DNA of 64,000 nt from Burkholderia metallica. Lineage in GTDB: Bacteria; Pseudomonadota; Gammaproteobacteria; Burkholderiales; Burkholderiaceae. This document shows, one piece after another, positions 21,422-27,408 of this stretch (positions are counted from its first letter, which is position 1; every line of letters starts with the position of its first letter). The notes beneath the pieces were generated by a model. The model did no database searches and was not told where the DNA came from. It worked only from the letters and a program-made list of their open reading frames with translations. The DNA lies in contig NZ_CADFDB010000008.1 in the NCBI RefSeq assembly GCF_902832845.1, positions 335,333 through 399,332 of the forward strand. Direction: 5' to 3'. The translations under genes and the position numbers were made by a program.

Positions 21422-21658
21422 CGCACGGGACCGCTCGCCGCTTTCAATTGCACTACACGCGCAGGCGATGAAATGAACTTTCCCGTGCGGCTGCGCGACC
21501 CGCAAACGTTTTACGTTGATTTCGGTTCGAAACGAGGACGAATTCCCTAAAGGATGTTGAGCCCGATGACGTAAACGGGTCACGGGGACGACTCGCGATC
21601 GCATGCTTTCGACATGCGACGCGCAGTCCGCAACATTCAGCGCAGCAGGGGAATCGAC

Positions 21659-22900
21659 TTGAATCGTCAGCAATCGTGGACGCGTACGGCGGCGCCCGGG
21701 GAAATCATTTACTCCGAGGGTTTTGCGGGCGAGCCCGTCATCTTTCTGATCGCCGACGGCAAGGTCGAGCTGTCCACGCGATGCGACGACAAGCGCGTGA
21801 TCGTCGCGACGCTCGGCCGCGGCGAGTTCTTCGGCGAATCGGCATTGCTCGCGGCCGAACCGCGTGCCCATACCGCGAAGGCGCTTTCATTCTGTCAGCT
21901 GACGGTCGTGCCGGCCGGCATGCTCGACGAGGAAATCGAGCGCGTGTCGGCGCTGCTGCGCCACATCGTGCGAACGATGATCCGCCGCGTCAAGCGCAAG
22001 GACGACCAGCTCGCCACCTACACGCATGCCGACTTCATGCCGGGCGTGCTGTCGTATGCGCATGTGCTGGCGCTGATGGCGGGCGCCGAAGCGCGCGACG
22101 GCGGCGACGCGTGGGTGCGCCGGCCGATGCAGGCCCATGCGGCCGAAACCTCGGTGCCGCTTGCCGAAGTGATCCGCAAATGCCGCGCGATTGCCGGCCA
22201 TTCGCGCCCGCACGTGCTCGCGATGCTGCGACGCATGGAGAAGCTCAACCTCGTCACGATCGAAGCGGCGCAGGCGGACCATGCGGGCGGGGCAGTCGAC
22301 TATGCGGCTTCGTCGGATGCGCGCCAGGTCGTCACGTTCGACGCCGCGCGCGTGATCGATCGCGCGCAGCAGGTGGCCGATCACGATCTCGATCTGTCGA
22401 TCAACAGCGAGCTCGAACTCATCGAACTGGCCGATCTCGAATCGCTGATCGGCGTCGAGAGGACGATGCTGCTCAACAAGCTGTCGAACGGCGAGATTGC
22501 CGACGAAGTGTTCGCGTTCCGCAAATCGAAGGTGCTCAGCTACGTCGAGCAAAAGGGCGTTGCGTACTTCTCGCGACGCAACGCGCGTCGCGCAGAGGTG
22601 CGCTCGCTGGAGGATCTCGTGTCGATCGACCAGCGCACGCTGTTCGACGTCATCGGCACATTCGACACCTACGATCTCGCGAAGCTCATCGCGAATCTCG
22701 ACGATCGCGCGGTGGCCGACAAGCTGTTCTCCGTGATGACCGAGGCGCGGCGCAACGAGGTGTCGTGGGTGATGCGCCGCGAGCTCAAGCTCGATCCGGT
22801 TGAGATCGAGGACATCGAGCGGCGCGTGCTGGATGCCGTTCGCGCGGCGAAGGCGCCGGCGGCAGGCACTGCGCCTGTCGCGTCGGCATCGGATGCATGA
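21659..22900 (+). CDS. cyclic-nucleotide-binding / winged-helix / FliG-C-like fusion protein
   Basis: 413 residues from a TTG at 21659 with AGGGGA seven bases upstream; ATG 21614 is an alternative without a good site. Residues about 10-115 form a cyclic-nucleotide-binding domain with the phosphate cassette GEFFGESALLAAEPRAHTAKA intact. Around 145-200 a Crp-like winged helix is suggested (RKCRAIAGHSRPHVLAMLRR). From about 250 to 390 the protein resembles the FliG C-terminal motor-switch domain: LEDLVSIDQRTLFDVIGTFD, then LAKLIANLDDRAVADKLFSVM and DPVEIEDIERRVL. The next two genes are MotA- and MotB-like. Fusion of a nucleotide sensor and a rotor-type domain is unusual. Domain calls are by eye; the FliG call is the least certain. 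Confidence 0.75.
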   Translation: MNRQQSWTRTAAPGEIIYSEGFAGEPVIFLIADGKVELSTRCDDKRVIVATLGRGEFFGESALLAAEPRAHTAKALSFCQLTVVPAGMLDEEIERVSALLRHIVRTMIRRVKRKDDQLATYTHADFMPGVLSYAHVLALMAGAEARDGGDAWVRRPMQAHAAETSVPLAEVIRKCRAIAGHSRPHVLAMLRRMEKLNLVTIEAAQADHAGGAVDYAASSDARQVVTFDAARVIDRAQQVADHDLDLSINSELELIELADLESLIGVERTMLLNKLSNGEIADEVFAFRKSKVLSYVEQKGVAYFSRRNARRAEVRSLEDLVSIDQRTLFDVIGTFDTYDLAKLIANLDDRAVADKLFSVMTEARRNEVSWVMRRELKLDPVEIEDIERRVLDAVRAAKAPAAGTAPVASASDA

Positions 22901-22913
22901 CGAGGAGGCGCGT

Positions 22914-23678
22914 ATGGATCTGTTGACCCTGGCCGGTGTGGTGCTGGGCGGCGCCGCGATCGTGTTCGGTTTCGCGCTGGAAGGCGGGCACTTCTCGATG
23001 CTGTTCCAGTTCGAGGCGCTCGTGATCGTGCTTGGCGGCACGCTCGGCGCGGTGATGATCCAGAACACCTGGGCGCGCTTCTTCGACGCGGTGAAACAGC
23101 TGCGGCTCGCGTTCGTCCGTGCGCGCGAGGTCGATCGCAAGAACCTGTCCGACCTGCTCGAATGGGGCGACCGCGCGAAGCTCGACGGGCTGCTCGCGTT
23201 CGAATCGATGGACGTGAGCGGTATTCATCCGTTCGCGCGCCGCGGGCTCGAACTGCTGGCCAACGGCGTGTCGACCGCCGTGCTCGAAGATGCGTTGCAG
23301 CGCGAACTCGATGCGTACGAACGCAGCCGCCTCGCTGCCGCGCGCGTGTGGCAGCAGGCCGGCGGGTATGCGCCGACGTTCGGCATTCTCGGGTCGGTGC
23401 TCGGGCTCGTGCAGGTGACGAGCCACATTCTCGAACCGGCGCAGCTCGGGCCAGGCATCGCGGTTGCGTTCATCGCGACGCTGTACGGGCTGGCGTTCGC
23501 TAACCTCGTGTTCCTGCCGCTTTACGGCAAGCTGCGCGCGCAGATCGACAGCGAATTGCGGTTTCGCAAGCTGTATCTCGACGGCTTGCTGGCAATATCG
23601 CGCAAGGAATCGCCGCATACGATCGAAACGCGGTTGACCGGTGACGTGCGCGGGCGTGCGGTCGAATCGCTCGCGTGA
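22914..23678 (+). CDS. MotA-like stator / proton-channel subunit
   Basis: 254 residues, ribosome-binding site GAGGAGG. Four membrane segments as in MotA/PomA: about 4-24, 33-50, 145-165 (GGYAPTFGILGSVLGLVQV) and 178-200 (VAFIATLYGLAFANLVFLPLYGKL). The two membrane prolines typical of MotA (APTFG and FLPLY) are present. The cytoplasmic loop contains FARRGLELLANGV and a predicted helix where MotA contacts FliG. It is 13 bp after the FliG-like gene and 39 bp before the MotB-like gene, so one operon. Not adjacent to any flagellar gene here. ExbB/TolQ is the alternative, but the PxxG and PLYGKL blocks favour MotA. Confidence 0.88.
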   Translation: MDLLTLAGVVLGGAAIVFGFALEGGHFSMLFQFEALVIVLGGTLGAVMIQNTWARFFDAVKQLRLAFVRAREVDRKNLSDLLEWGDRAKLDGLLAFESMDVSGIHPFARRGLELLANGVSTAVLEDALQRELDAYERSRLAAARVWQQAGGYAPTFGILGSVLGLVQVTSHILEPAQLGPGIAVAFIATLYGLAFANLVFLPLYGKLRAQIDSELRFRKLYLDGLLAISRKESPHTIETRLTGDVRGRAVESLA

Positions 23679-23717
23679 TGGGCGCATGTCGTACGACGAA
23701 CCCGGATTCCCAATCGC

Positions 23718-24392
23718 ATGACTGCTCGAACTGACGGTGCATCTGCCGCCGATCGCGACGACGACGAACTCGACGGCGTGCAATCGGGCCGCTGGCTGAT
23801 TTCGTACGCGGATCTCATCACGACGCTGATGGTGCTGTTTCTCGCGCTGTATGTGCTTCAGCTCGCGAAATACAACGCGCTCGATGCGCGGTATCAGACG
23901 CTCGCGCGGCATGCCGACAGCGCGGCGAGTGCATCCGCTGCCTCTGCCGTAACACCTGAGCGCTCGCCGCCGTGGCTCGCGTTGCTCGATTCGTTGAAGT
24001 CGAACGGCCGGATCTCGCTGGTGAAGGCACCGCATGGTGTCGAGATCGGCATCGACGCGAAGATCCTGTTCAACGTTGGCGATGCGCGCTTGCTGCCCGA
24101 TTCGTCGCCGGTGCTGAACCAGATTGCGCAGGCATTGAGCGCGCATGCAACCGGTGACATCCTCGTCGAAGGCCACACCGACAGCGTGCCGATCGCGAAC
24201 GCGAAATACGAATCGAACTGGGAGCTGTCGTCGGCGCGCGCGGGGAGCGTCGTGCGCTACCTGACCGAGCGCGGCGTCGCACCGCATCGGCTCGCGGCCA
24301 TCGGGCGGGCCGATACGCAGCCGCTCGTCGCGGGTGACGATGCGGCCGCGCGGGCGCGGAACCGGAGGGTCACGATCTTCGTGGCGTATTGA
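23718..24392 (+). CDS. MotB-like stator subunit with OmpA peptidoglycan-binding domain
   Basis: 224 residues. A short acidic cytoplasmic tail is followed by one membrane helix with the ion-carrying Asp (SYADLITTLMVLFLALYVLQL, Asp near residue 38). The plug/linker is short and Ala/Ser-rich. The OmpA-C domain (about 110-220) has ILFNVGDARLLPDSSPVLNQIA, the peptidoglycan-binding VEGHTDSVPI, and RNRRVTIFV. All the features needed for a working, wall-anchored ion channel are kept. Operon with the MotA-like and FliG-like genes. Whether it powers flagella or another rotor is unknown. Confidence 0.88.
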   Translation: MTARTDGASAADRDDDELDGVQSGRWLISYADLITTLMVLFLALYVLQLAKYNALDARYQTLARHADSAASASAASAVTPERSPPWLALLDSLKSNGRISLVKAPHGVEIGIDAKILFNVGDARLLPDSSPVLNQIAQALSAHATGDILVEGHTDSVPIANAKYESNWELSSARAGSVVRYLTERGVAPHRLAAIGRADTQPLVAGDDAAARARNRRVTIFVAY

Positions 24393-24440: not shown

Positions 24441-25412
24441 ATGTCGACCGAGAATAATGCCGGGGCCGCTGCCAATCGCGAGAACACACGAAACCCTCGC
24501 GGTGTTGTCAGGCTGCTGGTGCGTGTGCTGACAGCTGATTTGTCGCTTAGAAACCTGATCATCCAGACGATTGTGCTTTCCTTGGCGATTGCATTCGCCT
24601 GCTATTACTGGCTGGGGCCGTGGATGGCCACACATAGTGATTACGCATGGTTGAGCCAATGGCGCTGGATGCCGTTGCCGGCGGCATTGGGATATCTGGC
24701 GTTGATTGGAGTCATACGGCATCGGTCGCTGATGGCGGCGCATGCTGCATTTCGCGATTTGCCGAAGGGCACGCCAGACGAGAAGAAAATTCAGCTCAAG
24801 CACCAGGTCGAGAGAAAGCGCAGTCTGTACAAGATGATCGGTGAGGTATTCGCCGCGATGTCGGTACTCAGCGCCGCATTTTCGCTGATGGGCTCCTATA
24901 CGTCGTTCGACGCGCGATTTTTGCGACCCGGCCCCGCTGTGATTGCAGCGGATCTGGCACGGATCCGCGTGTTGACTGAGCGGTCGTGTCGTATGGGTGT
25001 GACGGCGGACATTTGCACGACTCCGCCTTCCGTGCGCCAGATGATTGACATCGTCGAGAAGGAAACTGATCCGATTGAGCGGCGGGCTGCCGTAATGGAG
25101 ATGCTGGAGCGTGTCGGTCCGGTGCTGGCCGCGATTCAGGACGTCGGGCATGACGAGCTGGCGCGTCTCATCAAGAAGGTCGATGCTGAAATTCCCGACG
25201 AGGCGGGGTTCTCATTACTTCAGATGGCCATTGCATCATTTCTGGTTTTGACGGTGACTATTGCGGTCGGTTTCAAGCTTGCTGTTGCCGTGTACGAGTA
25301 CCGGCTCACGTTCTTGGCAATTGATGACGTTGCGAAGCAAACCGTCACGCCCCATGTTTCGCAGCGTACGAATATGCCGCAGGTCGCCGAATCGCAGGAG
25401 TCGTCAAAATAA
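24441..25412 (+). CDS. four-helix membrane protein of unknown function
   Basis: 323 residues after GAGGGA. Hydrophobic segments lie near 40-60, 78-95, 130-150 and 252-280, with a Lys/Glu-rich cytoplasmic segment (GTPDEKKIQLKHQVERKRS, about 108-126) and a mostly helical loop of 100 residues between helices three and four. The codon use is clearly less GC-rich than the motor genes 48 bp upstream, which hints at a different origin. No family recognised. Its close spacing to the MotB-like gene makes a role in the same system possible, but not shown. Confidence 0.7.
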   Translation: MSTENNAGAAANRENTRNPRGVVRLLVRVLTADLSLRNLIIQTIVLSLAIAFACYYWLGPWMATHSDYAWLSQWRWMPLPAALGYLALIGVIRHRSLMAAHAAFRDLPKGTPDEKKIQLKHQVERKRSLYKMIGEVFAAMSVLSAAFSLMGSYTSFDARFLRPGPAVIAADLARIRVLTERSCRMGVTADICTTPPSVRQMIDIVEKETDPIERRAAVMEMLERVGPVLAAIQDVGHDELARLIKKVDAEIPDEAGFSLLQMAIASFLVLTVTIAVGFKLAVAVYEYRLTFLAIDDVAKQTVTPHVSQRTNMPQVAESQESSK

Positions 25413-25545: not shown

Positions 25546-27408
25546 ATGCATTTCTGGCGCAAGCTTTCCATTCAGAACAAGCTGATTCTCAGCATGACGA
25601 GTTGCCTGCTCGTGTTCGTCGCGATCTCGAGCGGGCTCAGCATCCGCCTGATCGGCAACGCGGTGCGCGATCGCGTCGTGCGCGAAGAGCTGCCGACGGC
25701 CGTGAACGGCATCCGCGCCGACGTGCAGCGGCAGATGGCCGGGCCGATCGCCGCGTCGCGGATTCTCGCGCGCGATGCATTCCTGCTGCAATGGGAAGCC
25801 GACGGCGAACCGGACGCCGGCACGCGCAACTGGATCCAGCTCGCGAAGAACGTGAAGGACGAGCAGAAGGCCGCGTCGGTGCAGTGGGTGTCGGTGAAGA
25901 GCGGCAACTACTACAACGAAGCCGGTCTGCAGCGGAAGGTGACCGACAAGGATCAGTGGCTGACCGGCTTCCTGTCGTCCGGCAAGGCGTTCGACGTGAA
26001 CATGGACCGCGAGGTGACGGTCGGCGGCTACATGATGTTCATCAACAGCCGCGTCGAACTCGACGGCGTGCCGATCGGCGCGGCGTGCATGAGCTTGTCG
26101 GTCGATGCGCTCGCGAAGGGCATCGCCGCTTACCGGATCGGCGAGACCGGCTTCGCGTATCTCGTGCGTCCCGACGGCGCGATCATGATGCATCGCGATT
26201 CGTCGCTGATCGACGGCAAGCATTTCATGAAGGACCAGCAGGGGCTGCCCGGCGATGCGTCGTCGACGCTGCTGGCCGGCAAGCCGTATGCGTACCTGAG
26301 CTACAACGGTGAAGGCGGCGCGCGTTTCATCGCGACGTCGTTCATTCCGGAGTTGAACGCATATGTGGTCGTCGAGGTGCCGCAGGTCGAACTCCTCGGA
26401 CCGGTGACGCGTGCGATCCGCAGTGCTGCGCTGGTCGCGGCGGTGGTGGGGCTGGGTGTCGCGTTGCTCGTGATCTGGCAGGTGGGGCGTGCGATCGCCG
26501 CGCCGATCCGACGGGCGGCGACGCTGCTGTCGGAGATCGCAAGCGGTCAGGGCGATCTCACGCGCCGGATGACGGTCGAGAGCCAGGACGAGATCGGGCA
26601 ATTGTCGGATGCGTTCAACCGGTTCGTGTCGTCGCTGTCGACGCTGGTGCATAGCATTCGGGCGGCTTCTGCATCGATCGCGACCGGGTCGGCGCAGATT
26701 GCGACCGGCAATGCCGACCTCAGCGAACGTACCGAAGGGCAGTCGAGCAACCTGGAGCGCACGGCTTCATCGATGGAACAAATCACGGCCGTGGTGCGGA
26801 ACAACACCGAGACGGCGACGACGGCCGCGAAGATGATCAACGGCGCTTCCGATGCGGCGGCGCGCGGTGGGCAGGTGGTGGGCGAGGTGGTGAGCACGAT
26901 GCAGGAGATCAGCGACGCGTCGCAGCGGATCTCCGAGATCATCGTGATGATCGACAGCATCTCGTTCCAGACGAATATTCTTGCGTTGAACGCGGCGGTG
27001 GAAGCGGCGCGGGCCGGGGAGCAGGGGCGCGGGTTTGCGGTGGTGGCTTCGGAAGTGCGGAATCTGGCGCAGCGCAGCGCGCAGGCGGCGAAGGAGATCA
27101 AATCGCTGATCGAACATAGCGCGGGGACGGTGAATACCGGGTCGCGGCTGGTGAGTGAGGCCGGGAAGGTGATGCGCGATGTCGTGACGCAAGTGCAGGG
27201 CGTGAGCGCGATGATGAGCGAGATTGCCGAGGCGAGCCTGGAGCAGAGTGCGGGTATCGATCAGATCGGGGATGCGGTGCAGTCGCTCGATCAGATGACG
27301 CAGCAGAATGCGGCTTTGGTCGAGGAAAGTGCGGCGGCTGCGGAGAGTTTGAAGCAGCAGGCGGCGGAATTGACGCGGCTGGTGTCGGCTTTCAAGGTGG
27401 ATGAGTAA
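25546..27408 (+). CDS. methyl-accepting chemotaxis protein with dCACHE sensor
   Basis: 620 residues with GAGGG before the ATG. Membrane helices near 12-32 and 288-310 flank a periplasmic sensor of about 250 residues of the double-CACHE type ([42 protein letters not shown]). A HAMP domain follows ([26 protein letters not shown]). The signalling hairpin includes [27 protein letters not shown]. The C-terminus lacks the NWETF-type methylation-docking pentapeptide. It senses a small molecule and controls CheA. Located 133 bp after the membrane protein, with its own promoter likely. Confidence 0.93.

Follow-up and report, generated by a model that had tools for sequence, protein, structure and literature searches.

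What might be controlled by a protein that joins a cyclic-nucleotide-binding (CNB) domain to the torque-bearing end of the flagellar rotor protein FliG, and that is encoded directly ahead of its own MotA and MotB? The question is raised by three genes in a 64,000-nucleotide stretch of the genome of Burkholderia metallica (contig NZ_CADFDB010000008.1, positions 335,333 to 399,332), referred to here as the window; the genome belongs to the Burkholderia cepacia complex, and the closest named relative in our scan was B. lata, at 96% identity. We consider, with moderate confidence, that the trio represents a secondary set of flagellar stators supplied with a dedicated, nucleotide-gated regulator of a clutch-like kind, rather than a separate motor. 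The domain make-up, the operon, the promoter motif, the co-occurrence and the decay of the locus in one flagellum-less genome were computed here, and the features concerned are as follows.

21548..21575, + strand: sigma-28 (FliA)-like promoter, TAAAG at 21548-21552 and GACGTAAA at 21568-21575, 111 bp upstream of the start codon
21659..22900, + strand: fusion gene (CNB, Crp-like winged helix, middle domain, FliG-C), TTG start; a longer open reading frame (ORF) begins at 21614
21683..21940, + strand: CNB domain with phosphate cassette, residues 24-109 in long-ORF numbering
22598..22849, + strand: FliG-C torque domain, residues 329-412
22748..22780, + strand: equivalent of the stator-facing "torque helix", with invariant residues in place of FliG's charges
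22914..23678, + strand: MotC-type MotA stator subunit
23718..24392, + strand: MotB stator subunit, with the channel Asp in YADLIT, a plug and an OmpA peptidoglycan-binding domain
25546..27408, + strand: methyl-accepting chemotaxis protein (MCP), downstream

The CNB domain of the fusion was recognized at E 3e-17, and FliG_C scored 22.6 in hmmscan, slightly below the Pfam cut-off of 23.3, and 25.7, above that cut-off, in a six-frame search. These were the only two domains at E<=1: FliG_N and FliG_M, through which FliG binds FliF and FliM, were not found in the fusion, nor was a PilZ domain in the Pfam search, and no transmembrane stretch was present (best 19-residue mean hydropathy, 1.18). The winged helix that follows the CNB domain was recognized by fold only and is CAP/NtcA-like, while the middle domain (about residues 237-325) had no convincing fold match and was only weakly spanned in the C-half search; the middle domain (window 22322-22597) and the CNB domain are the best-conserved parts of the protein. 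The original prediction of a CNB domain with an intact phosphate cassette, a Crp-like winged helix and FliG-C was thus borne out by domain searches and fold comparison, and the FliG similarity that it had placed at residues 250-390 was recovered by profile search, although over residues 329-412 and not over that whole interval. Where an annotation of the fusion was met, it read "cyclic nucleotide-binding domain-containing protein" only. The protein is probably a soluble sensor, and a dimer, that carries only the FliG-C part of FliG.

All three genes lie on the + strand, separated by 13 bp (fusion to MotA) and 39 bp (MotA to MotB), and ORFs and family matches agree with the operon as first described, with its 13-bp gap and its MotA-like gene followed by a MotB-like one. 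MotA exceeds the cut-off of the flagellar family NF006583, on which ground a TolQ/ExbB-type channel was rejected, and it has full-length matches to PomA (8bri, E 3e-38) and to Paenibacillus MotA (9lu9, E 5e-52); it belongs to the family with the flagellar torque-generating loop and has the conserved basic and Glu positions. The channel Asp and the OmpA wall-binding domain claimed for MotB are present as YADLIT and a peptidoglycan-binding motif, and among 100 relatives YAD occurs in 93 and the binding motif in all. 

The trio occurs as a unit. The fusion was found in 73 of 299 sampled Burkholderiaceae genomes and in 36 of the 41 from its own genus, its own genome being counted. Gene order was read at 101 loci (the best 80 of 110, a further 20 and the window), a set that is partly redundant in that 8 of the 20 additional loci repeat one of the 80 and 92 distinct sequences stand among the 100; fusion, MotA and MotB follow one another on a single strand in 100 of the 101, with MotA and MotB about 1 kb apart in two. 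This co-occurrence in related genomes, and the placement of the orthologues outside ordinary flagellar operons, both accord with the original prediction. The exception (L039:8429-9583) is an orphan CNB-FliG-like fusion, 32% identical, that has no MotA or MotB and lacks part of the middle domain, yet has a sigma-28-like site. Of the 73 fusion genomes, 72 have a MotA of the module clade (at least 66% identity), and among the 226 fusion-less genomes it was met only as two contig-end fragments, both in G270; two other fusion-less genomes, G142 and G230, match the module MotA at 38% and 33%.

A survey of the class gave matches in 36 of 369 genomes, 5 of which, our own included, match beyond the CNB domain; 20 of the matching places were fetched, and the C-half profile was present in 4 of these. 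The four genomes G414, G530, G531 and G402 carry full fusions at 25-27% identity, with FliG_C scores of 38.3, 38.1, 38.3 and 27.5 bits, respectively. MotA and MotB follow the fusion on the same strand at the distant loci L159, L160 and L162, and MotA was not found on the 8.8-kb contig of the remaining distant locus, L161. A phylum-wide search of 339 genomes with the C-half profile returned the fusion from our own genome and G011 only, together with one flagellar FliG. Paraburkholderia xenovorans LB400 has the trio as well (L145), and in Paraburkholderia sp. PGU19 it is found, with an MCP gene just upstream, on a mobilizable plasmid of 853 kb (L205). A comparison of P0001 with viral_contigs gave no match, and a viral origin was rejected on that result.

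The link to the flagellum is provided in the first place by the promoter. The sequence upstream of the fusion, TAAAG-N15-GACGTAAA, resembles sigma-28 sites, and the ordinary flagellar motA of the same genome has GAAAGTTT-N11-GCCGTAAA. Scored against a consensus that was adjusted with these upstream regions in view, 100 of 100 relatives reached at least 10; that score was attained by 51 of 2013 regions ahead of other ORFs, by 3 of 100 reverse-complemented sequences and by 54 of 2000 shuffled ones. The sites in the 100 relatives comprise 79 distinct sequences, and in 94 of the 100 relatives the site lies 100-145 bp from the start. A pairing of TAAAG with CCGAT 10 bp further on was dropped, the canonical sites of this genome having longer spacing. 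The second link is co-occurrence: an ordinary FliG was detected in 72 of the 73 genomes that have the fusion and in 157 of the 226 that do not. The exception among the 73, G242, has a match neither to FliG nor to the flagellar rod, and at its locus (L188:8298-11169) the fusion is split across frames and MotB is in three pieces, MotA being open. In a published array study of an efflux mutant of B. cenocepacia, the chromosome 2 "flagellar motor" genes BCAM0777 and BCAM0778 are listed as raised together with flagellar genes (PMC3079749); they may be the module's MotA and MotB.

We suggest that sigma-28 would turn on the trio together with late flagellar genes and that MotA and MotB would form a peptidoglycan-anchored, MotCD-like stator working on the cell's ordinary rotor. 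The fusion would dock on the cytoplasmic side of its cognate MotA, at the site used by the FliG of the rotor, and the binding of a cyclic nucleotide would decide whether the stator is kept off the rotor, as by a clutch, or is set free for it or brought to it. That the fusion binds MotA and competes with the rotor is inferred here, as are the identity of the ligand and the direction of the effect. As a soluble protein that has only the stator-binding end of FliG, the fusion cannot join the C-ring through the known FliG-N and FliG-M contacts, and, read most simply, the stator is a dedicated one with a partner that fills the rotor site under nucleotide control. The clutch direction is favored because FlgZ, a cyclic di-GMP (c-di-GMP) protein of Pseudomonas aeruginosa reported (PMC8203827) to act on MotC and to uncouple MotCD, offers a functional precedent. 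In P. aeruginosa, cyclic AMP has been linked to effects on the stators or the switch complex (PMC6855561), and isolated FliG-C linked to MotA is gripped between MotA neighbors in an engineered complex (PMC11302681). The fusion would be a natural counterpart of the engineered MotA-FliG-C fusion that served to solve the stator-rotor contact.

Several observations weigh against this proposal. The torque charges of FliG, in E. coli numbering K264, R281, D288, D289 and R297, are all replaced in the Burkholderia-clade fusion (by A, A, W, V or I, and D, respectively), and because all five are replaced, the classical binding pose is not assured; otherwise the same helix is invariant in this clade at R379, E382, W385, M387, R388 and R389. 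FliG-C is not the best-conserved part of the protein, its mean entropy being 0.91 bits compared with 0.61 for the CNB domain and 0.59 for the middle domain, and the model of the full-length fusion was poor overall (predicted local distance difference test score, 63.8; predicted template modeling score, 0.35). The promoter score was tuned after the Burkholderia upstream regions had been viewed, and the distant fusions score 10.1, 8.1, 8.6 and 9.4, with only L159 reaching 10. The chemoreceptor gene near the locus in G242 is also broken, such that general decay is possible, and a single case proves little.

The other side of the contact has fared differently in the two clades. In the E. coli motor, MotA R90 meets FliG D288-D289 and MotA E98 meets FliG R281 (PMC12505986). 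MotA of the Burkholderia clade has K at the R90 position in 100 of 100 sequences and E at the E98 position in 99 of 100, and because these are kept, an ordinary rotor could still be driven by the module MotA. In the distant clade, the three available MotA sequences have I, M and L in place of R90 and keep E98, and the fusions have D/T, Q/T, K/T and T/T in place of D288/D289, with R281 kept in four of four and K264 in three of four. Such a matched loss on both sides, as a real contact predicts, is only suggestive, since the sequences compared are three of MotA and four of the fusion; it would make the distant clade a case of matched changes across the stator-rotor contact.

The alternative that survives best, although we regard it as unlikely, retains the same stator and the same contact and makes the fusion a docking or activating factor that delivers the stator or opens its plug, nucleotide binding then raising torque. 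All of the evidence given above apart from the FlgZ precedent applies to it equally, and an obligatory partner would suit the strict co-occurrence of fusion and MotA; on the other hand, no FliG-N, FliG-M or C-ring-binding part was found, which leaves no evident means of bridging to the rotor, and the stator-acting second-messenger proteins described in excerpts of PMC8203827 are brakes or clutches. Somewhat less probable again is a stator-sensing transcription factor that FliG-C holds at idle stators and that engagement, through load or surface contact, frees to act on gene expression, with its winged helix on DNA. The CAP/NtcA-like fold of the CNB domain and winged helix favors this, as does a recognition-helix stretch that is almost invariant in the Burkholderia clade (of 139 aligned rows, 132 have R198 and 131 have H200). 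Of three residues through which CRP contacts DNA, however, the helix keeps one, with P and A at the other two positions, and in the distant clade neither the motif nor part of the wing has been retained; no operator was seen by eye in the upstream alignment, where the promoter was the sole striking conserved element.

A further reading, which we hold to be doubtful, is that the fusion acts as a mechanical sensor, a rotor decoy competing with the C-ring for its stators, its free, nucleotide-bound pool reporting the number of engaged stators and coupling flagellar load or surface contact to a cellular response. The output would pass by way of the winged helix or of some other partner, and nature would then have made a load sensor by mimicking the rotor. 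It is improbable that the locus is just an ordinary second stator beside an unrelated regulator whose similarity to FliG-C is a harmless relic: the hmmscan score below the cut-off and the lost classical charges would fit, but FliG-C has 31 positions with entropy below 0.5 bits across 52 relatives, the stator-facing helix is among the most conserved, and CNB-fused FliG-C recurs beside MotA and MotB at about 26% identity. A self-contained, cyclic-nucleotide-gated, nonflagellar ion-driven motor, the other reading offered by the original prediction, fits less well than the clutch and is very improbable: the genes do lie outside flagellar operons as one unit, occur only together and have nonflagellar FliG-MotAB analogs (L179 and L180), but we rejected it as the leading reading on the sigma-28 promoter, the presence of ordinary FliG in all but one of the fusion genomes, the decay in that one, and a soluble rotor-like part that lacks FliG-N, FliG-M and, unlike those of L179-L181, any membrane anchor, to which the replaced torque-helix charges may be added.

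The loci named last emerged from a search for additional FliG_C domains, which returned proteins of 586-789 amino acids that end in FliG_M and FliG_C, preceded by a transmembrane stretch predicted from hydropathy only. In L179:7413-14545 (G350) and L180:396-5376 (G318), MotA and MotB are adjacent in the cluster, alongside related lipoprotein-like TPR proteins and secreted proteins of unknown kind; L181:2053-7827 (G395) has FliG-like, TPR and Sel1 genes and no MotA or MotB in the stretch read. A Sel1 protein is present in L179, where it also has SPOR, and in L181. L180 is the stronger candidate for a nonflagellar FliG-MotAB machine because G318 (93% complete) has neither ordinary FliG nor a rod match; the same holds for G395 (98% complete), while G350 has ordinary FliG. 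Genome G531 (L182:3143-4747, L183:1-2864, L161:3339-4520) yielded five FliG_C matches that include the flagellar FliG, the CNB fusion, a 534-residue protein and one of more than 950 residues with two copies. A second pairing of a cyclic-nucleotide sensor with a stator was seen at L173:5935-8866, where a Bd1971-like CNB-EAL protein is followed directly by MotA and MotB. In the window, a 323-residue predicted membrane protein with no Pfam match (24441-25412) separates the trio from the MCP gene and has a relative in none of the 100 other loci; an MCP-like ORF lies within the fetched flanks of 37 of the 101.

Each part of the system is known, and their combination is not described in the open-licence PMC literature that we searched, where, in keeping with the original prediction, no account of a CNB-FliG-C fusion with a stator was found. 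ZorB models are hit by MotB (best E 5e-22), but MotA is of the flagellar type, PADLOC gave no hit for it, to ZorA or otherwise, and matched the fusion only to AbiEi (weakly, E 0.0015, over residues 294-374), the operon holds no other Zorya protein, and Zorya defence was rejected. The module's MotA and MotB resemble MotCD/PomAB-type stators, from which they differ in having a dedicated CNB-FliG-C operon partner and in being found almost only with it. The fusion shares with FliG the C-terminal torque domain (PDB 3ajc, 1qc7 and 8ucs_H), and departs from it in the added CNB domain and winged helix, the missing FliG-N and FliG-M, the replaced charges and a location outside the flagellar operon; in contrast to CRP/FNR regulators and to Bd1971, its C-terminal output is FliG-C and not DNA binding alone or EAL. 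With YcgR, FlgZ, MotI and MotL it would have in common, by analogy (PMC8203827), a nucleotide-controlled soluble protein placed on MotA or the MotA-FliG interface, but those proteins use PilZ and c-di-GMP, whereas the fusion uses a CNB domain, a piece of the rotor and a stator of its own. The pairing of a dedicated stator with a soluble rotor piece under ligand control would represent a new mode of motor control, in a group of bacteria that is very widespread in soil, plants and the clinic.
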